Assembly (NCBI GenBank): GCA_020354025.1
Contig: CP070638.1
Location: 1,921,403 to 1,985,402, forward strand
DNA: 64,000 nucleotides
Direction: 5' to 3'
DNA from: Fidelibacterota bacterium
GTDB lineage: Bacteria; Fidelibacterota; Marinisomatia; SCGC-AAA003-L08; TS1B11
Part shown: positions 157-61,710 of the stretch, piece by piece
Layout: the number at the start of each line of letters is the position of its first letter
Position numbering within the stretch: the stretch's first letter is position 1
Notes under the pieces: generated by a model
Seen by the model: only the letters and a program-made list of their open reading frames with translations
Databases searched by the model: none
Told to the model about the DNA's origin: nothing
Translations under genes and position numbers: made by a program

Positions 157-500
157 ATGAAACATCACGATTTTTTATCTGCGGTTGCCGGCGGTGTGGC
201 AGCTTCTGCTTTGGGTCCTGCCGTGATTTGGGCTGAAGACCAGGGCCAGTGGAAACTGGTGTCCTATAATAATGAATCCCACCAGTTTAAGGTCGGGAAA
301 GGGGAGCGAACCGGGAACTGGGAGCATTATGATTTAGAAGCTGATCGCACGGAAATGCATAACCTGGCAGGAAAGCACCCTGAGAAAGCTGCTGAACTTT
401 AAATTTATTTGAGAGATGGAGCAAGAAAGTGGGCATCGTTCCATGGGAGACACTCGAGGCTATCAATACCAGACTGCGGGAAAAGGAACAGGTTCTTTAG
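157..500 (+). pseudogene. Arylsulfatase remnant with internal deletion and frameshift
   Basis: The first 26 codons read as a Tat-like export signal (VAGGVAASALGPAVIWAED) of the kind found on secreted sulfatases. They run directly into a sulfatase C-terminal end (GQWKLVSY, then YDLEADRTEMHNLAGKHPEK), so the roughly 400-residue catalytic core, including the formylglycine site, is missing. A stop at about position 400 breaks the frame, but the usual tail resumes in another frame (WSKKVGIVPWETLEAIN) and ends in TAG at 498-500. The gene therefore lost its middle and was then frameshifted. An intact sulfatase lies 5 kb downstream. Confidence 0.7.
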
Positions 501-501
501 A

Positions 502-1752
502 ATGAAACACTTTTATGTGCATATTATGTCTAAACGCGCGTTGCCCTTTTTATTCCTGACCTCATTATTGGGCTTAGTTGACCAGAGTCTTGCCGGAAAT
601 GGAGTTGAACCACGACTCTTTCTGCTTGATTCTAGAACACTTTTTGAGACCAAGGAAAGGGTGTATTCTGGTGATAAAGAGCTATTACCGGCCATACAGA
701 AGTTGCGGAGTGAAGCTGATCAAGCTCTAGACTCCGGCCCATTTTCTGTGATGGACAAGCCCTTTACACCTCCAAGCGGTAACAAACATGATTATATGAG
801 TCTGGCACCATATTGGTGGCCAAATCCGGATACAGAGGATGGACTTCCTTATATCCGAAAAGACGGCTTGGTAAATCCTGAAAGAAACAGGTACGACAAG
901 ATTCCACTTCGTGAATTGGAATTAAATGTGGTGACCCTGGCGCTAGCGTATTTCTATACCGAGCATGAGCCCTACGCTGCCCATGCGGTAAATCTGATAC
1001 ACTGTTGGTTTCTAGATGAAGAGACCCGTATGAATCCACATTTAGAATACGGACAAGGGATACCGGGAATAACCGAAGGTCGCGGCTCAGGTATCATCGA
1101 TACCCGATCGTTTTTCAGAATTGCAGAAGTTGTTGACTTGCTTAGTGGCTCGCGAAGCTGGACGGAAAAGAACCAGAAGCAATTACAGGAATGGTTCAGT
1201 AAATATCTTGACTGGATGCTGAATAGCGAAAAAGGCAAAAAGGAGGCTGCCTCTAATAAAAATCATGGAACCTGGTTTGATGTGATCGCATCTCATCTTG
1301 CTTTCTTTGTGGGGGAAGAAGATATCGCACAGGAAATTCTAAAGGCTGTACCGGAGTGCCGGATTGCCGTTCAAATCGAGCCCGATGGTCGCCAACCATT
1401 AGAGCTTAAAAGGACCCGCTCATTTCATTACAGCGCTATGAATATCGAGGGGCTCTTTCATTTAGCCATCATGGGTGAAAATGTTGGATTAGAATTATGG
1501 AATTTCGAGACCGAAGACGGCCGCTGTTTTAAAACAGCGTTGACTTTTTTACTTCCATACGTAACTGAGGGTAGACCCTGGCCATATCAACAGGTGAGAG
1601 GATGGGAAGCGGGAGATTCTGAAATTTTACACTTTATACTACGCCTTGCTGTAAAGAAATATGGTGAACCAGAGTATGAAGCAATGATTAAGCGGTTACC
1701 TGATATTGATGTGAACTCAAGCAGACTGAATCTACTCTATCCTTTGAGGTAG
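502..1752 (+). CDS. Secreted alginate-lyase-family polysaccharide lyase
   Basis: A protein of 416 residues with an N-terminal signal peptide (hydrophobic ALPFLFLTSLLGLV, likely cleaved after SLAG). It matches the alginate lyase domain family (Pfam Alginate_lyase; PL5/PL38-like enzymes acting on uronate polymers by beta-elimination). The family landmarks HDYMSLAPYWWPNP (about residue 85), NKNHGTWFD (about residue 255) and RTRSFHYSAMN (about residue 315) are present; the Asn-His pair and the Tyr/His region are catalytic in the family. I chose the ATG at 502, just after the sulfatase remnant; the longer frame from 409 overlaps that remnant and would bury the signal peptide. Mannuronate, glucuronan and other uronans cannot be told apart from sequence alone. 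Confidence 0.8.
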   Translation: MKHFYVHIMSKRALPFLFLTSLLGLVDQSLAGNGVEPRLFLLDSRTLFETKERVYSGDKELLPAIQKLRSEADQALDSGPFSVMDKPFTPPSGNKHDYMSLAPYWWPNPDTEDGLPYIRKDGLVNPERNRYDKIPLRELELNVVTLALAYFYTEHEPYAAHAVNLIHCWFLDEETRMNPHLEYGQGIPGITEGRGSGIIDTRSFFRIAEVVDLLSGSRSWTEKNQKQLQEWFSKYLDWMLNSEKGKKEAASNKNHGTWFDVIASHLAFFVGEEDIAQEILKAVPECRIAVQIEPDGRQPLELKRTRSFHYSAMNIEGLFHLAIMGENVGLELWNFETEDGRCFKTALTFLLPYVTEGRPWPYQQVRGWEAGDSEILHFILRLAVKKYGEPEYEAMIKRLPDIDVNSSRLNLLYPLR

Positions 1753-1894
1753 ATACGGGATGAAAAAGTGAAAGATAAGATGCAAAAAGATTAGTGTAAA
1801 ATCCCAGTTTAGCCATAATTTAATAGGCAACATCACACCAATGATCTGAAACCAGTAAGCGGCTGAAGCCGAACTTCAGCCCGGGAGGAAAAAA

Positions 1895-3325
1895 ATGGCT
1901 ATAAAGGAAGAACTGTCAAACAAAACAACGCGCAAGGAGTTCATCAGGAAATCGACCTGTGCCGCCGCCGGCATATCCCTGGGGGTAAGTGCCATCGGTT
2001 CGCCGGCCCTGGGGTCGGTGCTGGGTGCCAACGATAAAGTCCGGGTGGGTTTCATCGGCGTGGGCAACCGGGGCACTCAGCTGATGACCCGGTTCATGGC
2101 CAACGACGATGTCGAAGTTGCGGCCCTGTCGGATGTCTATGAGCCGTATATGGATAGAGACTATTCGAAAGTCAGCGAGAAGATTCTTGCCGAGGTGGGC
2201 GACAAGGTTCCCAAGATGGGCGAGAAGTTCAGTGGGAAAGTGGGCAAGTATAAGGATTTCCGCAAGCTGCTGGATCTGAAAGACATCGATGCGGTCTGTA
2301 TAGCCACGCCGGACCACTGGCACGCAATTCAGACCATTATGGCACTAGACGCGGGGAAGGATATCTACGTTGAGAAACCCCTTACTATCACTCTGTATGA
2401 GGGCCGCAGGATGATTGAGGCGGCGGCAAAAACCGATCGCATAATTCAGGTCGGTCTTAACCGCCGCGGGTCTTCCATCTATCAAAGCTTGGCGAAAATG
2501 ATCCGTGACGGCAAGATCGGGAAAGTGTCGCTGGCCCGGGCCTATCGCATCAGCAATATGTACCCTGACGGTATAGGCAAGGCCAAAGGGGTAAGGCCAC
2601 CGAGGGGATTTGATTGGGATATGTGGCTGGGACCCCGTGCTAAAATACCCTACCAGTACAACATCGCCCCCTACAAGTTCCGTTGGTGGAAGGACTATTC
2701 CACTCAGATGGGCAACTGGGGTGTACATTACATGGATGCTATCCGCTGGATGATGGGTGAGGAGGCGCCGACGGCCATTAGCGCCCATGGCGGCAAATAT
2801 GTCCTTGACGATGACCGCACCATCCCCGACACGATGGAAGTGACCTTCGAGTTCGCCTCGGGTGCTATCATTGCTTTCGGCATTTATGAGGCCAGCGGCG
2901 GGTCCATGATCGTCGATGGTGAAATCGAGTTGCGGGGCACTAAAGGTAATCTTATTTCCAGCCAGAGCGGGTACCGGTTCGAACCTAACGAGGGTGGCCA
3001 GTTCCAGGATCGCGATGGGCTGATCAAACCGGAAGAGTACGAATTTGAATCCGACCAGAGTTACGGCGATCTGGGCATTAAAGAAGACTCTACCGCCAAC
3101 CTGATCCGCAACTTCCTGGACTGCGTGAAGTCGCGGGCCAGAGATAAAGTCATGTGCGACCTGGAGACCGGTCACCGCTCCACCAGTTTCGCACACCTCG
3201 CCAATATCGCCCTCGAAGTGGGTGATCGCCTCGAGTGGGATACCAAGAATGAGCGCTTTATAAACAATGAAGCGGCGAATGAGCTGCTGCATTACGAGTA
3301 CCGCAAGCCCTGGATCCTGGGATGA
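1895..3325 (+). CDS. Tat-exported Gfo/Idh/MocA family oxidoreductase
   Basis: An NAD(P)-dependent sugar or polyol dehydrogenase of 476 residues. The N-terminus holds a Tat-like signal (TTRKEFIRKSTCAAAGISLG), then a Rossmann fold (RVGFIGVGNRG, about residue 50), the family motif EKPLT (about residue 160) with catalytic-type Lys, and the C-terminal alpha/beta domain containing the conserved GNWGVHYMD region. SD GGGAGGAAAAAA precedes the ATG. Exported members usually hold a tightly bound cofactor and recycle it, often forming 3-keto sugars. The next gene is ThuA-like and the one after an epimerase, a trio known from 3-keto-glycoside pathways. The substrate is not known. Confidence 0.92.
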   Translation: MAIKEELSNKTTRKEFIRKSTCAAAGISLGVSAIGSPALGSVLGANDKVRVGFIGVGNRGTQLMTRFMANDDVEVAALSDVYEPYMDRDYSKVSEKILAEVGDKVPKMGEKFSGKVGKYKDFRKLLDLKDIDAVCIATPDHWHAIQTIMALDAGKDIYVEKPLTITLYEGRRMIEAAAKTDRIIQVGLNRRGSSIYQSLAKMIRDGKIGKVSLARAYRISNMYPDGIGKAKGVRPPRGFDWDMWLGPRAKIPYQYNIAPYKFRWWKDYSTQMGNWGVHYMDAIRWMMGEEAPTAISAHGGKYVLDDDRTIPDTMEVTFEFASGAIIAFGIYEASGGSMIVDGEIELRGTKGNLISSQSGYRFEPNEGGQFQDRDGLIKPEEYEFESDQSYGDLGIKEDSTANLIRNFLDCVKSRARDKVMCDLETGHRSTSFAHLANIALEVGDRLEWDTKNERFINNEAANELLHYEYRKPWILG

Positions 3326-3526
3326 TCGTTCTTGCCGAATCCCGCCGATGGCGGAGGAGCACGACAATTCCCGGGATTCACACCTTCTTGGAAGGATCAG
3401 ACCGGACTATTGACCGTTGCTCAACCAAATGTTGAGGTTGTCATTGGATGCACCTGTGACGAAAGGCAAGTTTCTGATCCAGGGTGGTAGAGTTCAGACG
3501 ATACTTTTCCTTTGAAGGAGTTGATT

Positions 3527-4360
3527 ATGCTCAGCCGAGTTATAATCTCGCTTGTACGTATATCGTCCTTTGTCTTGTTGATCCCGGTATTATTCATGGG
3601 TTGCGAGTCATCTAGTGTGCTAAAAAAGGTGCTTATTATCCAGGACGAGCTGCCGCAGATCGAAGTCCTGGCTGAATTTCTGCGCGAACGAGGTGGTATG
3701 GAAGTGGTAGTGGTAGATCAGGAGGACTTGCCGTCTGATTTCTCGCCCTTCAGCGCTGTTATCGGTTTCATCCACGGGGACCTGAAGATACCTACGGAAA
3801 AAGCCATAATTGACTACACCCTTCGCGGTGGACGACACATCGTGCTGCATCATACCATTAGCAGCGGGAAGGCCGAGAACGAGTTCTACTTTGATTTTCT
3901 GGGGATCCGGTTGGATAATCCAGCAGAGTCCAGTGACCCTGTGGAGCCGGGCGGTGGGTATGGCTGGCGTCACGTGCCGGTGCTGACCCTGGTCAACCTG
4001 AATCCACAACACTATATCATCAACCATAAGGTCAACTGGGGCGAAGAAATCCCATACACGCCTTCCGATTTTCCCAGCGCTGAGGGATTGTATCCGTCCC
4101 TCACCCTGGAAAGCTCGGAGGTATACCTTAACCATAAGTATACTGATGGGCGGGAAAAGACTGTCCTCATGGGCCTGAAGTATTTCGATGACCGCAACCA
4201 GGTACTGTTCATGCAGGACCGGGCCGGTTGGATCAAAAGAGCCGGCAAGGGGGATATCATATATCTTCTACCTGGTCATGAACCATCCGACTATGAAAAC
4301 CGAAACATATCACAGATGGTCTTGAATGCCGTAAATTGGGTTCGCCAGTCTGACGAATGA
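3527..4360 (+). CDS. ThuA-like domain lipoprotein
   Basis: A 277-residue protein starting at the ATG six bases after AAGGAG; an upstream in-frame TTG lies within that SD and is less likely. The N-terminus is hydrophobic and ends in a possible lipobox (LFMGC, with Phe at -3, so not perfect). The rest resembles the ThuA family (class I glutamine-amidotransferase-like fold): an N-terminal KVLIIQDELPQ strand, the VLHHTISSGKAENEFYFDFLG segment, and a C-terminal GLKYFDDRNQVLFMQ block. ThuA proteins act with ThuB-like Gfo/Idh dehydrogenases on disaccharides and their keto derivatives, and such a dehydrogenase is the preceding gene. The exact reaction remains open. Confidence 0.7.
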   Translation: MLSRVIISLVRISSFVLLIPVLFMGCESSSVLKKVLIIQDELPQIEVLAEFLRERGGMEVVVVDQEDLPSDFSPFSAVIGFIHGDLKIPTEKAIIDYTLRGGRHIVLHHTISSGKAENEFYFDFLGIRLDNPAESSDPVEPGGGYGWRHVPVLTLVNLNPQHYIINHKVNWGEEIPYTPSDFPSAEGLYPSLTLESSEVYLNHKYTDGREKTVLMGLKYFDDRNQVLFMQDRAGWIKRAGKGDIIYLLPGHEPSDYENRNISQMVLNAVNWVRQSDE

Positions 4361-4392
4361 CCTGGATCATAATCATATAGAAAGGCTTGTCG

Positions 4393-5385
4393 ATGAGACC
4401 CAGTAAAAGTTCCCGCTCTACGGAGATGACTCGCGGTGAGTTTCTTACCATGATGGCCGCGACCGGGATAATCCTACCCACAACCAGGCTTGCCGGCATG
4501 ACCGAAAAGTCCAGGCCCGGCAAAGGCGGCAACCTGCCTTTATGCATCTTTTCCAAGCACCTGCAATTCCTGGACTATGACGCCATGGCCGAAACCGCTG
4601 CCGAGATCGGCTTTGACGGTGTGGACCTTACCGTGCGTCCCGGTGGCCACGTGTTGCCGGAGAACGTAGAGCGCGACCTGCCGCGCGCGGTGAAAGCCGT
4701 GCGTCAGGCCGGCTTGGAGGTCAATATGATGACCAGCCGCATCACCGATCCCGATGATCCCCAAACAGTATCCATCCTAAAGACCGCAGGTCGGCTGGGC
4801 ATTGGCTACTATCGCATGGGCTACTTGAAATACAAGGAAGAGCTGGGTGTGGTCCAGACTCTGGAGTCCTACAAGCCACAGTTGCGGGAACTGGCGGGGT
4901 TGAACGAGAAGTATGGCATACATGGAGCCTACCAGAACCACTCCGGTACGCGGATAGGTGGACCGGTTTGGGATGTCTGGCTGCTGATTAAGGACCTGGA
5001 CCCCCGCTGGGTGGGCTGCCAGTACGATATCCGCCACGCCGTCGTCGAGGGTGGGATAAGCTGGCCGCTGGGATTGAAGCTGCTCGGCTCACACATCAAG
5101 ATCACGGCAATCAAGGATTTCTACTGGGCCAAGGTCGACGGCGTCTGGAAAGTCCAGAACTGTCCGCTCGGTGAGGGGATGGTGGATTTCAAGACCTATT
5201 TCAAAATGGTTAATGAACTGCGAATTGAAGGCCCTGTATCGATACACTTTGAGTATCCCATGCCAGCCGAGAGTGAGGGGAAACTGAGTCTTGAGCAGCG
5301 CAGGCAGAAGACAGTGACTGTCATGAAAAGAGACCTGGAAACGCTCAGATCAATGCTTAAGGAAGCGGGATTGGTTACCGGCTGA
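4393..5385 (+). CDS. Exported sugar isomerase/epimerase, xylose-isomerase-like TIM barrel
   Basis: A 330-residue protein with an N-terminal export signal (TRGEFLTMMAATGIILPTTRL) followed by an AP-endonuclease-2 / xylose-isomerase-like TIM barrel. Visible family features are GFDGVDLTVRPGGHV (strand 2), YQNHSGTRIG (metal-site His), GCQYDIRHAVVEGG, HIKITAIKDFYW with the conserved Lys-Asp, and a final HFEYP Glu, giving a plausible divalent-metal site. The start is the ATG seven bases after AAAGG. Exported members beside Gfo/Idh genes are thought to act on keto-sugars or as epimerases. It probably forms one transcription unit with its neighbours. Confidence 0.85.
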   Translation: MRPSKSSRSTEMTRGEFLTMMAATGIILPTTRLAGMTEKSRPGKGGNLPLCIFSKHLQFLDYDAMAETAAEIGFDGVDLTVRPGGHVLPENVERDLPRAVKAVRQAGLEVNMMTSRITDPDDPQTVSILKTAGRLGIGYYRMGYLKYKEELGVVQTLESYKPQLRELAGLNEKYGIHGAYQNHSGTRIGGPVWDVWLLIKDLDPRWVGCQYDIRHAVVEGGISWPLGLKLLGSHIKITAIKDFYWAKVDGVWKVQNCPLGEGMVDFKTYFKMVNELRIEGPVSIHFEYPMPAESEGKLSLEQRRQKTVTVMKRDLETLRSMLKEAGLVTG

Positions 5386-5425
5386 ATTCAGCTGGAGGGT
5401 AGCTCAGACCTCGTAGGCTCAACCG

Positions 5426-6919
5426 TTGGATGCTGTGACGAAGAACCGCTACAATCGGCGTGATTTCATTGTGACTGCGGCTAAAGCAGGGGTCGCCTCG
5501 GCTGCTGTCATATCCGCTCCGGGGCTACTGCTGGGTAACCGGAGAGATCAGCCACCGAATGTGATATTCATAATCTGTGACCAGATGCGCGGTGATGCCC
5601 TGAGCTGCCTAGGACACTCCAATGCCCGGACGCCCAACCTAGACCGAATGGCCGCCGGTGGAACGCTGTTTACCAACTTCTTCGCTAACAGTCCGGTCTG
5701 CATTCCTTCAAGGGTGAGTATGTTCAGTGGACTGTGGCCTCACCAGCACGGTTGCCTGACCAATGAGTCAGGCGAACTCATTCAATCCCTGGGAGGCTCG
5801 CTGTTGGGATATTTTCATGACCGTGGCTACCGGGTAGGCTGGATTGGCAAGAACCACACCTATGCCAAAGAACGCCTCCAGGAGTTGGATCTAAGCAAAA
5901 TCAGGGCACGGGAGCCTTTCCGGGCTTACAGCAAATTCGTACCGCCCTATTGGCACAGCGATACTTTCTGGCCCGATGAGCAGTGCCACCCGTATCTGAA
6001 CACAACAAACGCCATCGAATTTATTGGCAGCGCCAGGGCTGGTGAACCGTTCTTCCTGCATCTGAGCTATTTTGATCCCCATCCTCCGTATATGGCTTCC
6101 TCGGAGTATACCGCCCAGTACTCCTCGAAGGACATGCAGCTCCCGCCGTATGTACCTCCCGAGAAGTTGAGCGAGCGGCTAGCCGAGCACCGCCGCGCGT
6201 TGCATTATGACCGTATCGGCGATACCGACCTGACCGAGACAATGCGTTACTACTACGCTTCTATCCAGTGGGGTGTCGATTCGCAGGTAGGGCGGATCTT
6301 GGCGGCCCTGGAGGAAAAGGAGTTGGCTGGAAATACCATTGTGCTGTTTGCCTCCGACCATGGTGACTTTATGGGCGAACATCGAATGGTACGAAAGGCT
6401 ATGTTCCTTTATGATTCCCTGCTGCATATACCCATGATCTGGTACGCTCCCGGGCGGGTGCAAGTCGGTGCACGTGTGAAGAACCTCGCCCAAGGGATTG
6501 ACCTGTTCCCGACTTTGGTTGACCTGACAGGTGGCAGGATGGATCGCAAGTTCCCTGGGCGGTCCTTGAAACCTTACCTGGAAGGGGGGGCACAGCAGGA
6601 GTACGACTTTGCCGTTATTGCCTCGGCGGCCTATAGCGATCTACCGCTGGGCTATTTCGATGATCCCGAGCTGGCCTACAATCCTGACTCCGATGTGCCG
6701 TTCCATACCCGTGTTCAGCGGTTGACCTGGAAGGCCGAGAACCGGACTGCTATGGCTCGCACGAACGGCTGGAAACTGATACTTAGCGAAACCCGCCCAC
6801 CAGAGTTGTACCACATGGCCGGGGGCTGGATCGAGCGGGAAAATGTTGCCAGCAAGCGGGAACACCGGAAAGTCCTCAAGTCGCTGGAGCAGAAAATCAG
6901 GGATGTGTGGTCGTGGTAG
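5426..6919 (+). CDS. Secreted sulfatase (formylglycine-dependent)
   Basis: A 497-residue type I sulfatase of the alkaline-phosphatase superfamily. It has a Tat signal (RRDFIVTAAKAGVASAAVIS), then metal ligands (FIICDQMRGD), the activation motif CIPSR with Cys92 as the residue to be oxidised to formylglycine, a GKNH-type active-site segment (WIGKNHTY), DPHPPY and the second metal motif FASDHGDFMGEH. The translation start is uncertain: TTG at 5426 gives the full signal, GTG at 5435 is an alternative, and neither has a strong SD. Together with the lyase it suggests a sulfated, uronate-containing polymer such as an algal polysaccharide. No formylglycine-generating enzyme is in the window. Confidence 0.94.
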   Translation: MDAVTKNRYNRRDFIVTAAKAGVASAAVISAPGLLLGNRRDQPPNVIFIICDQMRGDALSCLGHSNARTPNLDRMAAGGTLFTNFFANSPVCIPSRVSMFSGLWPHQHGCLTNESGELIQSLGGSLLGYFHDRGYRVGWIGKNHTYAKERLQELDLSKIRAREPFRAYSKFVPPYWHSDTFWPDEQCHPYLNTTNAIEFIGSARAGEPFFLHLSYFDPHPPYMASSEYTAQYSSKDMQLPPYVPPEKLSERLAEHRRALHYDRIGDTDLTETMRYYYASIQWGVDSQVGRILAALEEKELAGNTIVLFASDHGDFMGEHRMVRKAMFLYDSLLHIPMIWYAPGRVQVGARVKNLAQGIDLFPTLVDLTGGRMDRKFPGRSLKPYLEGGAQQEYDFAVIASAAYSDLPLGYFDDPELAYNPDSDVPFHTRVQRLTWKAENRTAMARTNGWKLILSETRPPELYHMAGGWIERENVASKREHRKVLKSLEQKIRDVWSW

Positions 6920-6962
6920 CCTATCCCTTAATACCCTCCAATATGAATCATCGGAGTTGCCA

Positions 6963-8372
6963 ATGAACAAGGAAGATTATTCAACGAGTATATCCCGCCG
7001 GCAGTTCATCGTGGGAACCGGCGCGCTGGTCGGCCTATCGATGATAGGCCTGACAGGATGCAGTCAAAAGTCAAAGAAGGACCAACCGATGGCAATCAAG
7101 ATAAAAGAAGTCGATTCGGATTTTGAACGGGAGCCCCTTATCCGGCCCTTTGGATTCAAGGGTGGCTACATGACCAGTATCTGGCAAACTGCCGCGCTCA
7201 TGGAGAGTGAATCGGGCGCGCGTGAGATCGGGCTATGTACCCAAAACGTACTGTGGTCGGATGCCAAGGTGTTCGCAGCCCATTCCGAGGCTGGCGGCAA
7301 CGCCGTAATGTACGCCCTGACCGAGCGGGCACTGCAGATCGCCAAGGGGATGTCCTTCCGAACCCCTATCGATCTGCTGGAGGAAATCATAGACGACGTT
7401 TATCAACACGGCAAGCAGATCACCGGTAATCCGAACCTGCGAAAAACCTTTGCACTCAACGCCCTGGTGGGCTTCGACAATGCCGCCTGGCTGCTGTACG
7501 CCAGAGAGAACGGCATTGGCAATTTCGACGACATGGTTCCGGCGGCATACCGGCCAGCCCTCTCGCACCACCACCAGCAGGTGGCCAGCATCCCCCTAAT
7601 GGCCTATGCCATACCGATCAGTGAGATCAAGGAGGCGGCCGAGCAGGGCTACTTCTTCATGAAGATCAAGATCGGTCAGCCGGGGACACAGGAGGAAATG
7701 CTGGAGAAGGATAAAGCCCGCCTGTCGGCCATCCACCAGGCCATCGGACACCTGGAAACCAGCCATACCAGTGATGGCAAGCTGCCATACTATTTCGATG
7801 CCAATGGTCGGTACGAGCAGAAGGAGACCCTGCTGCGGCTGCTGGATCACGCTCGTAAGATCGGTGCCTTTGACCAGATCGCCGTGATCGAGGAGCCTTT
7901 TCCTGAGGAACTAGAAGAAGATGTGAGCGACATTGGGGTGCGGATAGCCGCCGACGAAAGCGCCCACACCGACGAGGACGCCGCCAAGCGCATCGAGATG
8001 GGGTACCAGGCCATTGCTCTGAAAGCGATTGCCAAGACGCTGAGCATGACTATGAAGATCGCCCAGTTGGCCCACGAGCACAATGTACCCTGCTTCTGCG
8101 CCGACCTGACGGTCAATCCAATCCTGGTGGATTGGAATAAAAATGTGGCAGCCAGGCTGGCACCCTTCCCGGAACTGGGCCTGGGCTTGCTGGAAACCAA
8201 CGGCCATCAGAACTACAGTAATTGGCCTACTATGGTGAGCTACCACCCCTGCGCCGGGGCTTCATGGGCCCAGACGGTAGATGGCGTGTTCAACCTGAAC
8301 CGGGATTTCTACGACCGCAGCGGGGGGATATTCCTACCCTCCAAGCACTACCAGGAAATGTTCAAGCACTGA
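6963..8372 (+). CDS. Tat-exported enolase-superfamily (mandelate racemase/muconate lactonizing) enzyme
   Basis: A 469-residue protein starting with a Tat signal and lipobox (SRRQFIVGTG, then GLTGC, Cys33), so probably a Tat-exported lipoprotein. The enolase-superfamily barrel is complete: KIKIG (KxK base), FDANGRY (first metal Asp), VIEEPFPEE (Glu), IAADESAHT (third metal ligand) and ALKAIAKT (second base). Members abstract the alpha proton of a carboxylate, as in sugar-acid dehydration or epimerisation. Location outside the cytoplasm is unusual for this family. It sits just upstream of a TRAP importer, whose substrates are carboxylates, so its product may be what is imported. An upstream in-frame start overlapping the sulfatase gene was rejected. 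Confidence 0.88.
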   Translation: MNKEDYSTSISRRQFIVGTGALVGLSMIGLTGCSQKSKKDQPMAIKIKEVDSDFEREPLIRPFGFKGGYMTSIWQTAALMESESGAREIGLCTQNVLWSDAKVFAAHSEAGGNAVMYALTERALQIAKGMSFRTPIDLLEEIIDDVYQHGKQITGNPNLRKTFALNALVGFDNAAWLLYARENGIGNFDDMVPAAYRPALSHHHQQVASIPLMAYAIPISEIKEAAEQGYFFMKIKIGQPGTQEEMLEKDKARLSAIHQAIGHLETSHTSDGKLPYYFDANGRYEQKETLLRLLDHARKIGAFDQIAVIEEPFPEELEEDVSDIGVRIAADESAHTDEDAAKRIEMGYQAIALKAIAKTLSMTMKIAQLAHEHNVPCFCADLTVNPILVDWNKNVAARLAPFPELGLGLLETNGHQNYSNWPTMVSYHPCAGASWAQTVDGVFNLNRDFYDRSGGIFLPSKHYQEMFKH

Positions 8373-8640
8373 TCGCAAGAGGCCGGGGCCTTGGGGCTCG
8401 GGACTTGGGATCAAGAGTTTGAGGCACAGCGAGTCCCTCGTCAATGCGGGCACAATGTACATCAGACTTCGGGACATACACCTTACCCGGCCTGTAGCAA
8501 GGGCTGCTCCCAGCTGTAAGTTCGCAGTTGTAATTCTTACGGAGTGTTGTGAACCGTGGAAATCCGAGTCAAAGTAAATAAAACCGCGGTTTTAGTGAGC
8601 GATGTCTACGTCAGGTGTCTGGATATTCATAGGAGGTTAA

Positions 8641-9678
8641 ATGTTGCGTCGTAACCATGGTCGATGCTTTCCTATTTTAGCCATAATTGCCATTTTTATC
8701 GCGGGCTGCCAGTCTCCCGGCACTGCCGGGGGAGATGCCAGGGAGAAGTCGATCCCCAAAAAGGTCATCAAGCTGTCCCACAGCCATCAGGCCGACTTCA
8801 CCTCCGAGCTCCAGCTGGCGGCCTGGATCTTCCAGCAATGGATTCATGATCATTCGGACGACCTGGAGGTCAAGATCTACGCCGCTAACGCTCTGGGTCA
8901 GGAACGGGAGGTCTATGAAGGTATGCAGCTTGGTTCGGGGGCCAGCTGCGTGGTAAGCGGCACCGCTATCCTGAACAATTTTACACCCCGGATCGGTGTA
9001 CTCGACCTGCCCTTTTTGTGGAGGGATTACGACCACGTGTACAAGGTGCTCGATGGCGAAGTCGGTGATACCCTGGCCTGGGAGCTGGAGCAGGCCGGTT
9101 TCAAGGTACTCGGCTGGCTGAATAGCTGGGGTTACCGCAACGTTGTCACTTCCAATAAGGAGATCAAAACGGCGCAGGATCTCAAAGGCCTCAAGATCCG
9201 CACGATACAGACCCCGGTATACCTTGCCGCCCTGAATGCAATGGGCGTAAATGCTACCCCCATGGCTTTTGGGGAGGTCTATACTGGTATGCAGACGGGT
9301 GTCCTTGATGGTTTCGAGCATAACGCCACCGTTATCTGGGCTAACAAGTTTTACGAAGTGGGAAATTACATAACCCTGACACGGCACCTGTTAGGTCCCG
9401 TGGTTTTTATCTTTTCGAAGAAGGCCTGGGACAGACTCAGTGATAATGATAAAGAGGTCATCCAAGAGGCGGTCACGATGGCGCGTGATGTGGAGAGAGG
9501 CCTGACTTCTATCAGGGAAAGGGAGGCCTTCAGGAAGCTCCAAGAACACGGGGTGATTATCAATGAAATTGATACCCGGTCATTTGCAGAGCGCGCTGTA
9601 GAGCTCCAGAACAACCTAGCCGAAGAGATGGGTGCGCTTGATCTGCTGGAAAGGATCAGAGCAGCGGGACAAGATTAG
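8641..9678 (+). CDS. dctP: TRAP transporter substrate-binding lipoprotein, DctP family
   Basis: A 345-residue extracytoplasmic solute receptor. A strong SD (AGGAGG) precedes the ATG, and a lipoprotein signal ends at FIAGC, anchoring it to the membrane. The DctP fold is clear: HSHQADFTSELQLAA start, LKGLKIRTIQTPVY containing the conserved Arg that binds the substrate carboxylate, then FGEVYTGMQTGVLDGFEHN. The two membrane subunits follow directly. TRAP systems import C4-dicarboxylates, sialic acid, uronates and related acids using the sodium gradient; the enzyme context favours a sugar acid. Confidence 0.93.
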   Translation: MLRRNHGRCFPILAIIAIFIAGCQSPGTAGGDAREKSIPKKVIKLSHSHQADFTSELQLAAWIFQQWIHDHSDDLEVKIYAANALGQEREVYEGMQLGSGASCVVSGTAILNNFTPRIGVLDLPFLWRDYDHVYKVLDGEVGDTLAWELEQAGFKVLGWLNSWGYRNVVTSNKEIKTAQDLKGLKIRTIQTPVYLAALNAMGVNATPMAFGEVYTGMQTGVLDGFEHNATVIWANKFYEVGNYITLTRHLLGPVVFIFSKKAWDRLSDNDKEVIQEAVTMARDVERGLTSIREREAFRKLQEHGVIINEIDTRSFAERAVELQNNLAEEMGALDLLERIRAAGQD

Positions 9679-9774
9679 CTTTTGGGAAATACATAGTCAT
9701 AATGGCAATTCTTCCAAGGCGAGTTGTGTCCTAAGTCTACTTTGTTCCCAGATGGCAGCAAGTATGTATATAAA

Positions 9775-10260
9775 ATGATTAAAAGAGTATTGGCACATAT
9801 CGATCGTGGCATGGAGCTGTTCATCGCGGTCATCTTTCTATTGATGGTTCTTGCTGGCGGGCTGCAGGTCTTTAATCGGTTTGTACTCAATCAGTCTCTG
9901 AGCTGGAGCGAGGAGTTACAGATCTATTCACACATCTGGCTGATTTTCCTGACCATCCCCGTGGCATATAATCGAGGCTCCCACATCGGCATGATGATTC
10001 TTTTCGATAAACTTAATCCTCGTGCGCAGCTTATTCTAAGCGTCATCACGGACATCCTCTGGCTGGTTCTGGCCACTACCATACTGCTTTATACTGACGC
10101 TATCATGGCCGTAGCAAAGAACCAGTACAGCGCCGGCCTGGGGCTGCGGATGGACCGGATCTACTTTGGAATGATGATCAGTGCCAGTTATTTAGCCCTG
10201 ATCACAGTGCGTAAGCTCTCGAGTCGTATAGCCATGATTATACCCGGTGATGAGGAATAA
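9775..10260 (+). CDS. dctQ: TRAP transporter small membrane subunit, DctQ family
   Basis: A 161-residue protein with four predicted transmembrane helices (VIFLLMVLAGGLQVF, IWLIFLTIPVAYNRG, ILSVITDILWLVLATTILLY, and a C-terminal helix). It shows the DctQ signature of an Asn-Arg-Phe after helix 1, SLSWSEELQIYSHIWL, and NRGSHIG. I used the ATG at 9775, which places the first helix at the usual position; the longer frame begins at TTG 9724 and adds an unrelated hydrophilic tail. It lies between dctP and dctM and is six bases from dctM. Confidence 0.9.
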   Translation: MIKRVLAHIDRGMELFIAVIFLLMVLAGGLQVFNRFVLNQSLSWSEELQIYSHIWLIFLTIPVAYNRGSHIGMMILFDKLNPRAQLILSVITDILWLVLATTILLYTDAIMAVAKNQYSAGLGLRMDRIYFGMMISASYLALITVRKLSSRIAMIIPGDEE

Positions 10261-10266
10261 AGGTCT

Positions 10267-11556
10267 ATGCTGATCGGCCTTTTCGTTGCCTTACTATTGT
10301 TAATATTCCTCGGTACGCCCGTACTGCTGGCCATCGGCGTGGTAGCCCTGCTGGGTATCTTGATCACACCCGATCTGGTACTGGCCATGTTTCCCCAGAA
10401 GATGTTCACTATGCTCGATTCCTTCAGTCTACTGGCGATGCCTTATTTTATCCTGGCCGGTGAGCTGATGGCTAGGGGCGGCCTGAGCAGGAAACTGGTG
10501 CAGTTCGGCGAAACCGTTGTCGGACATCTGCGCGGGGGATTGGGACACGCCTCCATCTTTTCCTGTATGATATTTGCTAACGTGTCTGGTTCGGCATCTG
10601 CCGCCACTTCGGCAATCGGGTCAATACTGCTGCCATCTATGAAGGAACGAGGCTACAAGCCGGGATTCTCTGCCTCGCTGCTAGCGACCTCCGGCATTAT
10701 CGGCTCCATAATACCACCAAGCATGGTCATGATTGTTTATGGCGCCATGGCCGGAGTCTCGATAGGGGGATTATTCCTGGCAGGCATCCTCCCCGGTCTG
10801 CTTATCGTAGCCGTGCTAATGGTCGTGGTCTACGGTCACTCGTTTTTACCAGACTTTCCGGAATTGCGTCGTACTGTAGGTCGATTCAATCTGGCAGTGA
10901 TTATCAAATCGATCCCAAAAGTCTGGGTCGCCCTGCTGGCACCGGTGATCATACTAGGAGGCATCCTCGGCGGTATATTCACGGCTACCGAAGCTGGAGT
11001 GGTGGCCTGTATCTACTCCTTTCTGGTCTCCTTTTTCATCTACCGCTCGATGCGCCTGAGAGATCTGCCGCGAATCCTAGCCAGGGCTGCCATCACCACG
11101 ACGATGGTTGTAGGCATTATCTCCGTTGCGGGGGCTTTTGGCTGGCTGTTGGCATACCTGGATTTCAACGAGATCATGCTCCAATTTATTCTGGGCATAT
11201 CCAACCAGCCGATGGTGGTTCTGCTCATTCTAGTAGCCTCCATGATGGTCATGACCATGTTTGTCGAATCCCTGGCCATACTCATTATCATGGTACCGGT
11301 GATCATATATATCAGTAACGCTTTTGGATTTGATCCGTATCATTTTGGTATGGTAATGGTGATGGCGACACAGATCGGCGCTACAACGCCGCCGGTCGCT
11401 GTAGGGCTGTTTGTAGCCACCAGTATTGCGGGCACTTCCTATGATCAGACACTGCGCTATTGTCTGCCATTCGTGCTTGCTCTGATCGTTGTTATGATCC
11501 TGGTTATCTTTTTCCCTTGGCTCAGTAACTGGATTCCGCACTACTATCTGGGTTGA
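10267..11556 (+). CDS. dctM: TRAP transporter large membrane subunit, DctM family
   Basis: A 429-residue, highly hydrophobic protein with about twelve membrane segments, the size typical of DctM. Landmarks are LLAMPYFILAGELMARGG, FANVSGSASAATSAIGS (the conserved ion/substrate-binding region), SGIIGSIIPPSMVMIVYG and TQIGATTPPVAVGLFV. It forms the sodium-coupled pore with DctQ and completes the dctPQM operon. The stop is only 29 bases from the convergent serine-hydrolase gene, with no obvious terminator hairpin between them. Confidence 0.95.
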   Translation: MLIGLFVALLLLIFLGTPVLLAIGVVALLGILITPDLVLAMFPQKMFTMLDSFSLLAMPYFILAGELMARGGLSRKLVQFGETVVGHLRGGLGHASIFSCMIFANVSGSASAATSAIGSILLPSMKERGYKPGFSASLLATSGIIGSIIPPSMVMIVYGAMAGVSIGGLFLAGILPGLLIVAVLMVVVYGHSFLPDFPELRRTVGRFNLAVIIKSIPKVWVALLAPVIILGGILGGIFTATEAGVVACIYSFLVSFFIYRSMRLRDLPRILARAAITTTMVVGIISVAGAFGWLLAYLDFNEIMLQFILGISNQPMVVLLILVASMMVMTMFVESLAILIIMVPVIIYISNAFGFDPYHFGMVMVMATQIGATTPPVAVGLFVATSIAGTSYDQTLRYCLPFVLALIVVMILVIFFPWLSNWIPHYYLG

Positions 11557-11585: not shown

Positions 11586-13052
11586 TTAGAAGGTCTTCCA
11601 GGTGCTCTTGCCCCCCAGTGCGCGCTGGGCTACGTCACAGGCGACATCATAGCCCCCATCGCTGTTGGTGAGCACCACTACTCCCATACCCAGCTCTGGA
11701 TAAACCGCCATCAGGCTGCGATAGCCGAAGGTGATCCCGTTCTGCCAGAGGGCATCACCCTGGGCGCTGTGCTGGATTCCGGGGCCCAATCCCCACGAGA
11801 AGTTGTCATCGATTGGCGTCTGCGGAGTGCGGATCTGCTCGGCCATTTCCGGGCTCAGGTACTGCGGTTGGGACAGTTCGATGAGCAGCCGCGCCAGGTC
11901 GGGGGCGGAGCTTCGCAGTGAGCCTACGGCACCGGGCTTAGGAGAAATAAACCGCGGCTTCGGACCGCTTATCATCATCGCAAGCTGGATCAGCACCAGT
12001 GCTGCTATTGTTATCAATACGGCACAGATTAAGAAGCGGTAGAGGCCACTCCCACGCCATCTGGAAAACAGCCGTAACAGGGTCTGCCGTCCAATCAGGA
12101 TCACCAAGGCCAGGACGGCTGCGAATCCAAGTCCTGCCAGCGTGATCAACAGTACGAAGTTTGGCAAAGGCGGGCCCATTATCCAGACGAGGAGCAAGAT
12201 TGCCAGCAATCCCGCCGCCACCAGTACCAGAGCCCATTGGTTGACCGACACCCGCCAGCGACCAGTCCGGATACGGAGGATCATCACCAACACGATCATG
12301 ATCACCACCAGTGCCATGACAAAAGGCATCAGGAATAAGAGCAGGGGAATACCGTAGCCCAGGTGGCCGTTGGCCAGGTGGGACCGGATATCAGGGGTGG
12401 TCACGAAGCTGCTGGCCGTCATTCCCAGGGGCTCCAGCGCTAATTCCCGGGCGGCCGTCTCCAGCGACTGACCTGTCACCTGTTCCACTGCAGCTTGGAT
12501 ATACTGCGCGCCGATACCCGAATACAGGAATCCAGTTCCGGGTTCAAACTGCAAGCTCTTATCCATGGGCAAAAGGTTGTCACTCAGCCCCGAGCTGTGC
12601 CCGGCCAGGTGGCGCAGGGTGATCTTATCCCCCCATTCCGATGGCGGCAGCCACGGTTCGTCAAGTTGGCCGATTAGGGGCTCATCCAGAGCCAATTGGC
12701 CCTGCTCCACCAACCGCAGCGCGACATAGGCCGTTACTACCTTACTAATGGAGGCTACCTCGAAAGCTGTCTCAGGTGTCACTGGCCGACCGGTCCACTG
12801 GTTGGCCACCCCGAAACCCTCCGACCACACCACCTTTCCTTCCCGCACCAGCGCAATGGACAGGCCGGGTACATGGTCATCCGCCATGCGAGCGGGGATA
12901 TAGTCGCGCAGGTCCGCCACCACTGCATCCAACGGTTCAATGTGGCGCAAGAGCGGCTCAGGTGTGTCCTGACCGAATGCATAGGTGAATGGAATGAACA
13001 AAAAGACTGTACGACTGATAAACGGGACGATTCGAGAGACGCGAGAGTACAT
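11586..13052 (-). CDS. Serine hydrolase (beta-lactamase class C fold) with a membrane-spanning insertion
   Basis: A 488-residue exported protein. The start is the ATG five bases after AAGAGGAA; a longer frame from 13094 lacks support. After a signal peptide comes a class C beta-lactamase/esterase domain: nucleophile motif SISK (FEVASISKVV), the tyrosine motif YSG, and TLRHLAGHSSGL. From about residue 225 to 345 the chain contains about four strongly hydrophobic helices (FLMPFVMALVVIMIV, WALVLVAAGLLAILLLVW and two more), and the fold then resumes with PDLARLLIEL and WQNGITFGYRS. Members cleave D-amino-acid peptides or esters; no substrate can be assigned. Insertion of a membrane bundle inside the hydrolase is the notable point. 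Confidence 0.85.
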   Translation of the reverse strand: MYSRVSRIVPFISRTVFLFIPFTYAFGQDTPEPLLRHIEPLDAVVADLRDYIPARMADDHVPGLSIALVREGKVVWSEGFGVANQWTGRPVTPETAFEVASISKVVTAYVALRLVEQGQLALDEPLIGQLDEPWLPPSEWGDKITLRHLAGHSSGLSDNLLPMDKSLQFEPGTGFLYSGIGAQYIQAAVEQVTGQSLETAARELALEPLGMTASSFVTTPDIRSHLANGHLGYGIPLLLFLMPFVMALVVIMIVLVMILRIRTGRWRVSVNQWALVLVAAGLLAILLLVWIMGPPLPNFVLLITLAGLGFAAVLALVILIGRQTLLRLFSRWRGSGLYRFLICAVLITIAALVLIQLAMMISGPKPRFISPKPGAVGSLRSSAPDLARLLIELSQPQYLSPEMAEQIRTPQTPIDDNFSWGLGPGIQHSAQGDALWQNGITFGYRSLMAVYPELGMGVVVLTNSDGGYDVACDVAQRALGGKSTWKTF

Positions 13053-13221
13053 GATTTCCTCTTGGATAGATGTTGTATTCGGAATGCTATTCAATGGTTT
13101 TTTTTATACCCGGTGGGTGTAATTGCCGCTCTCATTCTACCCCTCACACCAAGGTGAGGGGATGACACACGCTGTCTGGAGTGAGGTCAATCAATCAACC
13201 TCAGCCAATCATATTAGCGCA

Positions 13222-14343
13222 TTACAGCACCTGGCTGCCCCAGGAATCCCTGATCTGGTTCCAGGCTAGGATGTTCGGCTTTGAGAAGTTCCGCCTGACG
13301 TCTTTAATACCTGTGCCCCTAACCTCGATTTCACTCAGGCTTGTCGGTCCCATCCCAATATCACTTGCCAGGGCAAAGGTAGGAATTTCGTCCATCTCAA
13401 ATCCCATGACGCTGGCAGCAACCATGTCCGTGGCCAGCGGATTCGTGCCGGCTATGATCACGTTCATCGGCACCAGAGTTCCTGCGGAGGGGCCATCACC
13501 CTCCATGGCCATCGAACCGTCCACAACGACCAGTCCGAGTTTGTTCACCCGCACCATATCGATCGTCTCAAAGGCGACCCCTGGTGATTCGCGGTCGGTA
13601 GCCTGGTCGTGTACACATGCTCTAACGGAGCAATAGGCTGTTCCCGGATAAAGACCGATGAGGTTTTTCATTCCCAAAGTCACTGTTGCCAGTACGTGGG
13701 TCTTCATCATCGGTACTGAACAGAGTAGATCGATGTCCTGGAGGGATTGATGCAATGTAATCCGGTCAAAGGCGAAGGCATTGGGCACCGCTACATCCAC
13801 CATCTCACCTGAGTGGAGATTGATGAGCGGAATTCCCAGCGCTTCAGCCAGTTCGGTATAGCCTAGCTCGTCAAAGACGAACTGCTGCATGCCATCCAGG
13901 ATCTCCCGGTTCGTCGTCCGATAGTCAACTCCCTGCTTCCTGTTAAATCCTTCGCCTGAGGCTGAGCCTTCACCGATCAGGACCTCCTTACCGGAATTGA
14001 TCATCAGCTGGGCCAGAGCCCTGGTGATTTCCGGCTTGGTAGTGAATACCGGACTCTCCGCCACCAGATTGGGTTTGAGCATTATCCGTTCTTTGCCATT
14101 AGCGACACTACCGATGCCTCCAAGGAGGTCTATGGCTTCTTCTACCGCATACCCGATATTGCCGTTTTTTATCCTGGCGATACTGACTGTGTACTTTTTC
14201 TCACTGGAGGGTCCTGTAAGAGAGCAGGCCACCGACTGCAGGGCGAGCGGCGCAACCGCGACGCCTGCCGTTGCCTTCAGACTCAGCTCGATAAAGTTCT
14301 TTCTAGAGCGGATTTTTTCCATGAATTTGAGATTTTCGGGCAT
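13222..14343 (-). CDS. DUF362 domain protein, exported
   Basis: A 373-residue protein beginning at an ATG preceded by AAAGAGG. An export signal with a twin-arginine-like RSRKNF and a hydrophobic ATAGVAVAPLALQ stretch is followed by a DUF362 domain: MLKPNLVAESP, EITRALAQLM, VLIGEGSASG, LLCSVPMMKTH, GMKNLIGLYPG and NVIIAGTNPLATDMVAASVMGF. DUF362 proteins are widespread in anaerobes and often carry ferredoxin domains, but no CxxCxxC cluster is visible here. Its function is not established. It lies downstream of nothing obvious on its strand and may be a single-gene unit. Confidence 0.85.
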   Translation of the reverse strand: MPENLKFMEKIRSRKNFIELSLKATAGVAVAPLALQSVACSLTGPSSEKKYTVSIARIKNGNIGYAVEEAIDLLGGIGSVANGKERIMLKPNLVAESPVFTTKPEITRALAQLMINSGKEVLIGEGSASGEGFNRKQGVDYRTTNREILDGMQQFVFDELGYTELAEALGIPLINLHSGEMVDVAVPNAFAFDRITLHQSLQDIDLLCSVPMMKTHVLATVTLGMKNLIGLYPGTAYCSVRACVHDQATDRESPGVAFETIDMVRVNKLGLVVVDGSMAMEGDGPSAGTLVPMNVIIAGTNPLATDMVAASVMGFEMDEIPTFALASDIGMGPTSLSEIEVRGTGIKDVRRNFSKPNILAWNQIRDSWGSQVL

Positions 14344-14672
14344 GTTTACCTCTTTAAAGTAGTGTGATTGTGGCATAAAAAACTATACGGTAAATTTCAT
14401 TATTCCAAGGTTTAATCACCGCCTCATCATAAGTGGCTATGCTAGGTCACCGCCCGGATCTCGTCCAACTTTTCTGGAGAGATAACCTTCTCGATGAGCT
14501 TGATAGCAGGGATGACGCTGTCTGTCAATGTCACCCAGGTAGCCACAATCGTCCTGATACATCTCGGCCTTTCATTCCAATCGGCTCATCAGGCGATTTT
14601 TTTATATACGCCGGCTAGGGGATGGGGATAATATCGGATTATTATATGGCGATAAATTATGGATAAACGCGA

Positions 14673-48814: not shown

Positions 48815-48817
48815 ATT

Positions 48818-51436: not shown

Positions 51437-51486
51437 CACTTTTTTCTCAATCCGACTCTAATCTGGATCTGGCAGGTGGGCGCCGA

Positions 51487-52479
51487 TCATGGATAATCGG
51501 CCCGGCCGTTGATATGTTTTTGGGTGTCGATGATACTCAGGTGATCCTCTCCAGCGACCGAAGTATGGCAGTCCCCACAAGCGGACAGCTGCAGATGCCC
51601 AGTGGGTGGGTAGCTGTGACAGGTGGCGCACCGGTTCTCCGCTGTAAGAGTGTCAGTCCAGGTAACAGTCTGGTTATTCCCTACGATGAGGCTGTCGGCA
51701 TAAATCCAGATATTGCTGCTGGTAGCTTTCTCGAACCGGAAATTTCCGTGACAGTACGAATTTGAGCAGGTGGCGCTATTACGGTCCCAGCTCAATGTGA
51801 AGGTGCTATCAGCTGTGGTGGGGATTCCGAAAGGTACTTCCGCGTACGGTGTTTCGTCGATATGCCCCTCTGCCCAGACGGAATCTGGGATCAAATGGCA
51901 AGAAGCGCAGTCAATATTGACGGTCAAACTGTCGGGATGGGTATAGTGGCTGGTATGGGTGCCTACTGTCACCAGATCAGTGCCGGTCTGGTTTCTCACG
52001 TCGATAAAGGAATCGTTAGCTTGGGTATTATGACAGTTATCGCAGGCGAAAATACCTCCAGAAGCGGTATGGCAGGCAGTGTTACTGCAGGCAGACTCTA
52101 CAACGCCGCCTTCCAAGTTCTGGCCGTGGCAAGCCTGGCAGCTGGAGAAATCCCAGTTATTCAGCCAGAAGATGCGTCCGTGGTAGTTATCATGGCTTGG
52201 ATCGATGTATTCCGCCAGCGGGGGATGGGGGATAGCTCCACCATCGCTATGGCATTCACTGCATGCCACTCCTGATGTACCACCGCTGAATTTTTCTCCA
52301 TGGCACTGGACACAGCCAGATAATCCCACAGCACGTATCTTGTCGCCGTGGAATGCATCACTGGGATCGTCCCATTTATCGGGATGAACCTTTCCCCCTT
52401 CGGCCACTTCGGTGCAGCTCCACCAGCCAAAAACCAGACACGCGGCCAGACCGCCGAGTAGGAACCGTTTAGAAAACAT
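51487..52479 (-). CDS. 9-heme cytochrome with CxxCH and CX4CH motifs, likely lipoprotein
   Basis: A 330-residue protein whose signal ends at WWSC, a possible lipobox. Seven CxxCH and two CX4CH sites (CSNTACH and CSNSYCH) are present. The mixed pattern, plus GxLSGCVQCHG and the DNCHNTQAN region, matches the CxxxxCH/CxxCH cytochrome family of Geobacter-type bacteria, which includes extracellular electron-transfer proteins. Its start overlaps the 12-heme gene by 11 bases. Confidence 0.9.
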   Translation of the reverse strand: MFSKRFLLGGLAACLVFGWWSCTEVAEGGKVHPDKWDDPSDAFHGDKIRAVGLSGCVQCHGEKFSGGTSGVACSECHSDGGAIPHPPLAEYIDPSHDNYHGRIFWLNNWDFSSCQACHGQNLEGGVVESACSNTACHTASGGIFACDNCHNTQANDSFIDVRNQTGTDLVTVGTHTSHYTHPDSLTVNIDCASCHLIPDSVWAEGHIDETPYAEVPFGIPTTADSTFTLSWDRNSATCSNSYCHGNFRFEKATSSNIWIYADSLIVGNNQTVTWTDTLTAENRCATCHSYPPTGHLQLSACGDCHTSVAGEDHLSIIDTQKHINGRADYP

Positions 52480-54608: not shown

Positions 54609-55023
54609 AAAGGAGAGGAAAGTTAAATATATCAGGACAACGAACTCAAATTTATTTATTGCTTGGAGTAAGCAAACTCTGCCGGTCTTGGGAGAGGGGA
54701 CATGGGGCTATGCCTTGTAATCGGATATCCGAGTTTAAGTCCATTCAGCCAACAACTATCTGAATCCCCAAATACTTCAATTCTTCTCTGAAGTTTACCT
54801 GCTGATATGGTGCCACCAGTATGATACCTTGAAATGAGACTTAAATGTCTTGTTAGCTATTGAAAAATCGATTAGCTTAAATGATAATTTACTTCCCGGT
54901 GTGGCAGGATAGAATCTTTCGTTGGCTGAGCCTTCTGTCATTAGGGGTAACCATTCTCTATAGCATAGCTCCTTTAAAACGGTTCGGGAAATATTAAGTA
55001 AAATCATTTATTGGGAGATGAAA
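54609..55023. promoter_or_regulatory. Divergent intergenic region of the cytochrome locus
   Basis: About 400 bases separate the two divergent cytochrome runs and must hold both promoters. AT-rich tracts (54850-54900) would suit promoter elements, but I could not fix -35/-10 pairs or an operator. No supported gene is present. Confidence 0.4.
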
Positions 55024-55641: not shown

Positions 55642-55727
55642 AGCCCTTCCGCTAATCATACAGGTACGCATTCATTTGATGGTTCTGTGTCACTAGTCAT
55701 AAGGGGCCGATTCATTTTCTTCTGAAC

Positions 55728-57629: not shown

Positions 57630-57695
57630 TTCTATAAGACGGCATTTGACTGTACACGGCAGCGTCTTTTCAATTATAAACGAGTATCGACCCAG

Positions 57696-60429: not shown

Positions 60430-60477
60430 CGTTTTCCCACGTCCGAACTGAAATCCTCAAATCAAGGAGTAACGCAC

Positions 60478-61404: not shown

Positions 61405-61470
61405 TATATCCGTACTCACCCCTTAGTTAAGGATACTATAATAAGGGGATAGTACACGGGTGAATCGTTC

Positions 61471-61677: not shown

Positions 61678-61710
61678 CTTATTGGGCGTATGTCTTTACG
61701 GTGCCGCTTG

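Follow-up and report, generated by a model that had tools for sequence, protein, structure and literature searches.

Which substrate is processed by a run of sugar enzymes that carry export signals and stand ahead of a tripartite ATP-independent periplasmic (TRAP) importer, and what the enolase-superfamily protein among them does, are the questions raised by a locus of a Fidelibacterota bacterium. It lies in a stretch of 64,000 nucleotides (the window hereafter; contig CP070638.1, positions 1,921,403 to 1,985,402) of a genome that consists of a single contig of 3.40 Mb. Nine plus-strand genes follow one another at 409-11556 and encode, according to Pfam, an alginate-lyase-family protein, a Gfo/Idh oxidoreductase, a ThuA protein, a xylose-isomerase-like TIM barrel, a sulfatase, an enolase-like protein and the complete TRAP set of DctP, DctQ and DctM. 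The genes and families listed in an earlier note on this DNA were thereby recovered. Our answer, put forward tentatively and with a little less than even confidence on the strength of sequence comparisons, is that the locus represents a cassette acquired by lateral transfer whose enzymes, most of them exported, act on oligosaccharides that contain uronic acid and are probably sulfated, with an acid product that would be imported.

When 84,980 species genomes were scanned, relatives of the enolase-like protein with 50-92% identity were found in 62 loci. The hosts belong mostly to Bacteroidota and also to KSB1, Verrucomicrobiota, Planctomycetota, Lentisphaerota and Acidobacteriota, with one Spirochaetales metagenome-assembled genome (MAG) and one MAG labelled Thalassobius; one relative comes from the strain Mariniphaga anaerophila DSM 26910. 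Neighbours were identified by BLAST at 1e-6 with the window proteins as queries and by a Pfam scan of 129 operon-like neighbours, drawn from 134 of 140 candidates after one L055 TIM-barrel orthologue and four L058 near-duplicates of L056 neighbours had been dropped by hand; some of the loci end at contig ends. Among the 49 loci in which more than 3 kb of sequence precede the enolase-like gene, 28 possess a Gfo orthologue (at least 40% identity), 27 a TIM-barrel orthologue and 20 both, the usual order being Gfo, TIM barrel, enolase-like. This trio is the unit that recurs, ThuA and TRAP having been added locally. The pairing of ThuA with Gfo (ThuB), which the earlier note had placed at the core, did not hold, as no ThuA match was present in any of the 62 loci and ThuA was confined to the window lineage and its sister genome; nor is TRAP a general partner, being present in one locus of the 62. 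What is conserved in relatives is the joint export of Gfo/Idh, TIM barrel and enolase-like protein, in agreement with the exported enzyme set proposed in the note.

Few genomes encode the enolase-like family (8 of 392 sampled among Bacteroidota, 2 of 245 in the phylum of the window), and from this rarity combined with the high identity we infer lateral transfer. By tree path the nearest row to the window protein is that of a KSB1 locus (L021), the branch being open, and this locus holds Gfo, a sulfatase (59% identity), the enolase-like protein, the TIM barrel, a GntR-FCD regulator, DctP (67%), DctM (77%) and an IolB-type isomerase. The closest relative of the window genome itself in the searches belongs to the same genus and is referred to as the sister genome. 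In the latter, the enolase-like gene appears as two partial copies that overlap yet are widely separated on the chromosome (L082:9160-10455 and L083:9700-10473), for which rearrangement or assembly error may be responsible.

The enolase-like protein gave no PDB sequence match at E 0.001, either with phmmer or with a profile of 30 sequences, and no NCBIfam match near its cut-off. Its predicted structure (predicted local distance difference test score, pLDDT, 90.8) comprises the complete two-domain fold of a capping domain and a modified TIM barrel, and its closest folds are dipeptide epimerases and muconate-lactonizing enzyme (MLE), the ten best structural alignments showing 15-19% identity. 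The best match, 3r0u (Z 35.8, root-mean-square deviation 2.8, 351 aligned residues), is titled a putative dipeptide epimerase, and the rows below it are tied. Eight residues, K234, K236, D279, E310, D331, K354, D381 and E411, show no variation across all 67 sequences compared. Three of them, D279, E310 and D331, occupy the ends of strands 3, 4 and 5 as the acidic metal ligands of the enolase superfamily, while K234-x-K236 on strand 2 and K354 on strand 6 are those of the MLE subgroup. The KxK motif and the three acidic ligands also line up with the genome's own dipeptide-epimerase-like protein in hhalign; K354 lies outside this alignment, and its position at the end of strand 6 rests on the model. 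MLE-type sites combine KxK with a further lysine, while the sugar-acid dehydratases of the mandelate racemase (MR) type use a His-Asp dyad on strands 7 and 6. An MR-type sugar-acid dehydratase was rejected for this protein, since strand 6 ends with K354 and strand 7 with CFCAD and no conserved His is found there; the sugar-acid-dehydratase chemistry that would have been expected for the enolase step is at odds with a two-lysine site of the MLE type. Sequence and predicted structure together identify a distinct family with a full two-lysine active site of the muconate/dipeptide-epimerase type. It has no assignment in NCBIfam, Pfam, PDB or the literature searched, and a search of the literature for exported enolase-superfamily enzymes in glycan loci brought up no report of it among the papers listed and the text available. 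Work on SAR202 uses enolase-superfamily enzymes for sugar-acid breakdown, the available part of the text making no mention of their export (PMC10444878).

Given this active site, the protein might be a periplasmic epimerase of dipeptides or N-acyl amino acids acting on compounds derived from the cell wall or from proteins, the adjacent sugar enzymes then having a separate function. The two lysines, the fold matches and the hhalign alignment all speak for such a role, yet the family repeatedly shares its loci with Gfo and TIM-barrel orthologues as well as with sugar-acid genes, and lacks a sequence match in PDB, so that we regard this explanation as improbable.

Export was judged from N-terminal motifs. 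The sulfatase (NRRDFIV followed by a hydrophobic stretch) and the enolase-like protein (SRRQFIV...LTGC) carry twin-arginine translocation (Tat) signals, and in the latter a lipobox closes the hydrophobic stretch; it is probably a Tat-exported lipoprotein. The lipoprotein-like signal noted earlier for ThuA was confirmed as a lipobox (FMGC), and DctP has another (IAGC). TatC is encoded in the genome (209.6 bits). Of the four enzymes for which Tat-type signals had been claimed, the other two deviate from the strict twin arginine in the window, Gfo/Idh having R-K (TRKEFIR) and the TIM barrel a single arginine, R-G (TRGEFLT), although nearly all their orthologues have RR: RRx[FWL] occurs in all 29 close Gfo orthologues and in 28 of 32 TIM-barrel orthologues, the exceptions (L005, L008, L021, L035) including frames whose mechanical start sits too far upstream. 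R-K is tolerated by Tat at times, a lone arginine less so. Since the sister genome has the same single-arginine TIM barrel, the change was probably inherited. In the enolase-like family, RRx[FLV] was found in 47 of 57 scorable proteins (5 of 62 were not scored), while RRx[FWLV] within the first 40 residues marked 35 of 484 other neighbouring open reading frames (ORFs), the motifs and searched lengths differing slightly between the orthologue counts and this background. On the family tree, which omits 5 of the 62 rows (truncated or without the anchor motif), at least 8 signal changes are needed, 5 of them forced by starred branches, and gain is indistinguishable from loss.

The R-K and R-G signals, found in two of the four enzymes, might also be read as marks of decay, the window cluster being a set of exported relics with damaged signals. 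The partial enolase-like copies in two places of the sister genome, beside which no Gfo, sulfatase or TRAP match was seen, would agree with this. Against it, the frames of all cluster genes in the window are intact and the active-site residues of the enolase-like protein are complete, which makes decay in the window genome a distinctly improbable explanation.

Another enolase-superfamily protein that carries an RR signal (SSRRDF; L068:892-2199, at about 789,800) and is of the MR type by its motifs is encoded in the window genome, and export is therefore not unique to the family described here. The claim that an exported enolase-family step is new held in so far as no family match was found in the libraries searched (NCBIfam, PDB), with the reservation that, as that protein shows, export occurs elsewhere in the superfamily.

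What the two partners may do was looked for among their relatives. The nearest PDB sequences of Gfo are 8tdf and 8tdh, both labelled dehydrogenase, with the glucuronide-3-dehydrogenase 8tdi lower, and its best NCBIfam match is the glycoside 3-dehydrogenase BT_2158_fam (152.3 bits). The part of the report available describes BT2158 as a glycoside 3-dehydrogenase of the periplasm (PMC11300592). The TIM-barrel model (pLDDT 90.5) resembles ketose epimerases, the keto-glucal hydratase AtHYD, the lyase AL1 and IolE, and its conserved residues are QNH185, D214, H217, K243, H287 and E289. Against the structures of 3-keto-glycoside lyases and hydratases it scored Z 23.3 (8tcd) and 24.7 (8ro4), tied with many epimerases. 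AtOGE (8BVK) and CGEs are absent among the fold matches listed, which excludes nothing. Between epimerase, IolE, hydratase and lyase, the fold matches of this protein do not discriminate.

These relationships would also suit an exported 3-keto-glycoside pathway for neutral glycosides, with C3 oxidation assigned to Gfo, elimination or hydration to the TIM barrel, and the enolase-like enzyme acting on an aldonic acid that arises as an intermediate. Such a pathway draws on the identity of the best NCBIfam match of Gfo, on AtHYD and the 3-keto-beta-glucopyranoside-1,2-lyase AL1 among the fold matches, and on 3-keto-disaccharide hydrolases (PF06439), which make up 9 of the 129 operon-like neighbours in relatives and bear out the link to 3-keto-glycoside pathways drawn in the earlier note. 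However, Gfo stays far below the BT_2158_fam cut-off of 750, none of the nine window genes scanned contains PF06439, and the alginate-lyase-family and IolB/KduI-type neighbours indicate acid sugars; we consider neutral glycosides possible but rather unlikely. An inositol-like pathway, with IolG-, IolE- and IolB-type enzymes relocated outside the cytoplasm, finds some footing in the matches of the IolG model to Gfo (1.6e-28) and of the IolE model to the TIM barrel (2.1e-4), in the IolB-type isomerase of L021 (175 bits, just under the NCBIfam cut-off of 205) and in IolE structures among the TIM-barrel fold matches. It was rejected as first choice, the scores of both enzymes (99.5 bits for IolG against 355 and 20.9 for IolE against 290) lying far under the equivalog cut-offs; moreover, an inositol route needs no enolase-type enzyme, and we give this explanation very little credence.

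The neighbourhood of the trio points to uronides instead. Alginate-lyase-family genes, one of which stands in the window, occur in 4 of the 62 loci (0.31 expected from 42 matches in 27 host genomes), beside or near Gfo in L008, L015, L016 and L020. IolB/KduI-type isomerases also occur in 4 of 62 (L006, L013, L016 and L021; expectation 0.26, calculated from 36 matches in 28 genomes). A further case, L078, comes from nine extra Bacteroidota regions, with other frames separating the isomerase from the enolase-like gene. The genome of L021 has a single PF04962 match, which we infer from equal length and score to be the L021 gene. The isomerases of L006 and L016 stand beside a gluconate-5-dehydrogenase-like short-chain dehydrogenase/reductase (SDR) and a transporter nearest to the D-galactonate model of the major facilitator superfamily. 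A fair count would be two to three independent cases per enrichment (Poisson 0.002-0.04, values that ignore kinship).

The importer agrees with this direction. The top solved sequence relatives of DctP include 4n8y, 4x8r and 7bbr, bound to galacturonate, glucuronate and 2-keto-3-deoxygluconate (KDG), respectively; in the available part of the same source the other structures discussed either are open or contain pantoate or erythronate, and co-purification of most ligands is stated as a caution (PMC11668362). Judged by sequence kinship, binding of sugar acids, pantoate and erythronate by the relatives bears on the alternative that DctP takes C4-dicarboxylates. A hexuronate route is present in the genome, with UxaC, UxaE, an SDR, 2-keto-3-deoxy-6-phosphogluconate (KDPG) aldolase and a PfkB kinase lying together at 3.21-3.22 Mb. 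This hexuronate cluster (L087:45-17281, 3.207-3.224 Mb) contains a TRAP system, a protein of 949 residues with only CARDB recognised, the tagaturonate epimerase UxaE, the SDR, KDPG aldolase, UxaC, a Gfo/Idh protein, a Lar_N protein and the PfkB kinase. The likely substrate class appears to shift from the disaccharides of the earlier note to uronides.

What was observed, namely which genes are present, their signals and conservation, the predicted fold, the residues of the active site, the enriched neighbours and a hexuronate route in the genome, is the basis on which we propose a substrate, a C3 oxidation, a C5 chemistry, a TRAP ligand and an order of steps. The alginate-lyase-family protein and the sulfatase would prepare the substrate, the latter desulfating polyuronide fragments. 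The exported Gfo/Idh, with its own bound NAD(P), would then oxidise a ring hydroxyl of the uronide, probably at C3, and later re-reduce the product, and for this reason no outside electron acceptor would be needed. Since an exported Gfo is cut off from the cytoplasmic NAD pool, a redox-neutral cycle of oxidation, cleavage and reduction with bound cofactor would be the simplest design. The TIM-barrel enzyme may break or hydrate the activated 3-keto sugar. MLE-type sites catalyse 1,1-proton transfer, cycloisomerisation or elimination beside a carboxylate; correspondingly, the enolase-like enzyme, with Mg2+ and two lysines, may take the proton beside the uronate carboxylate (C5), whereupon the C4 substituent would be eliminated or C5 epimerised, two outcomes between which sequence and model do not decide. 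The free hexuronate or deoxy-hexuronate would be bound by DctP, imported by the TRAP permease and passed to hexuronate catabolism. In this form the outline of the earlier note, in which processing takes place outside and an acid is imported, can be kept as a hypothesis.

Several observations weigh against this scheme. Neither partner is present in 14 of the 49 loci with sufficient upstream sequence, and TRAP is as rare among the related loci as stated above. The window TIM barrel, having lost RR as in the sister genome, may not be exported; the signal is missing in 15 of 67 enolase-like proteins, and export is therefore not essential to the chemistry. The TIM-barrel fold matches are many and tied (Z 22.9-26.6 over the best 50 rows). 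The neighbour enrichments rest on few loci, with L006, L008, L016 and L020 in one clade; the window genome has no PF04962 gene; and the hexuronate cluster has its own TRAP, 31% (partial DctP) and 38% (DctM) identical to that of the window.

The coordinates of the cluster genes are given in Table 1. The first gene probably belongs to the cluster, and its product is a possible polyuronate lyase. Intergenic gaps are mostly 6-45 bp, with the exception of those between alginate lyase and Gfo (about 140 bp), Gfo and ThuA (about 200 bp) and the enolase-like gene and DctP (268 bp). A scan for promoters and terminators yielded 10 and 9, with shuffled sequences averaging 7.8 and 8.8, and was not informative.

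Table 1. Genes of the cluster in the window (positions counted from the first nucleotide of the window).
Product	Position	Strand	Family evidence	Remarks
Alginate_lyase-family protein	409..1752	+	PF05426, 280.1 bits	
Gfo/Idh/MocA oxidoreductase	1895..3325	+	Pfam	Tat-like N terminus, R-K replacing RR
ThuA-family lipoprotein	3527..4360	+	PF06283, 52.5 bits (cut-off 33.4)	Lipobox FMGC; frame spans 3512-4360, likely start 3527
Xylose-isomerase-like TIM-barrel protein ("epimerase")	4387..5385	+	PF01261 (AP_endonuc_2)	N terminus TRGEF
Sulfatase	5426..6919	+	PF00884, 163 bits	RR signal; C-x-P-S-R motif (CIPSR)
Enolase-superfamily protein	6963..8372	+	MR_MLE_C as the only match, 56.7 bits	Tat lipoprotein signal, two-lysine active site; mechanical ORF begins at 6843, gene taken from 6963
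DctP, TRAP solute-binding lipoprotein	8641..9678	+	PF03480, 233 bits	
DctQ, TRAP small permease	9724..10260	+	PF04290	
DctM, TRAP large permease	10267..11556	+	PF06808, 356.8 bits	

Directly upstream of the cluster, a short frame (157-402), read by eye, has a start resembling that of an exported protein fused to a C-terminal part of sulfatase type and is perhaps a gene remnant. On the opposite strand downstream of the TRAP genes lie a Beta-lactamase-family (PF00144) protein with long hydrophobic stretches (11586-13094), convergent with them, and a DUF362 protein (13222-14376). Farther away, many CxxCH-rich, multihaem cytochrome-like proteins at 46853-63762 and a ferredoxin/NrfD-like pair at 58430-60429 were recognised by eye.

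A bolder proposal, which we hold to be doubtful, is that the enolase-like family represents glycan-active enzymes of a new kind, which are exported, use Mg2+ and two lysines, and perform beta-elimination at C4 or C5-epimerisation of uronides, or of 3-keto-uronides made by Gfo, outside the cytoplasm. With an equally guarded degree of confidence, such an activity would in effect be polysaccharide-lyase-like or that of a uronate epimerase; we know of no enolase-superfamily fold among known lyases. Should our reading of the cluster be correct, an unassigned enolase family of high conservation, found in several phyla together with its two partners, would join the enzymes that open acidic glycans, a second chemistry would be added to the exported 3-keto-glycoside route, and the TRAP importer would gain a testable ligand prediction. 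The complete active site and the relative in the M. anaerophila strain make the family directly testable.

Compared with known systems, the cassette shares with the periplasmic 3-keto-glycoside pathway of Bacteroides (BT2158 and partners) an exported Gfo/Idh of the same broad group, a TIM-barrel partner and PF06439 hydrolases near its relatives, but differs in a Gfo far under the equivalog cut-off, an added enolase-superfamily enzyme, acid-sugar neighbours and, in the window, TRAP uptake. Oxidation followed by TIM-barrel elimination or hydration is likewise found in the GlycDH-AtOGE-AtHYD glycoside elimination system of Agrobacterium, where a TIM-barrel enzyme performs beta-elimination on 3-keto glycosides; there, however, the oxidase is a flavoenzyme, and the available portion of the report names no enolase-superfamily step (PMC10628242). 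Compared by eye, the conserved residues of the window TIM barrel do not obviously follow the ligand pattern reported for AtOGE in that portion. With the muconate-lactonizing-type subgroup (dipeptide epimerase, MLE, N-succinylamino acid racemase/o-succinylbenzoate synthase) the enolase-like protein has in common the two-domain fold, KxK on the second strand, the D/E/D metal ligands and the lysine on the sixth, and differs in its low identity, the absence of a sequence-level PDB match, export and the sugar-gene context. Finally, DctP has among its closest sequence relatives of solved structure the TRAP proteins binding hexuronate, KDG or erythronate (4n8y, 4x8r, 7bbr and relatives), and its own ligand is predicted from this kinship.

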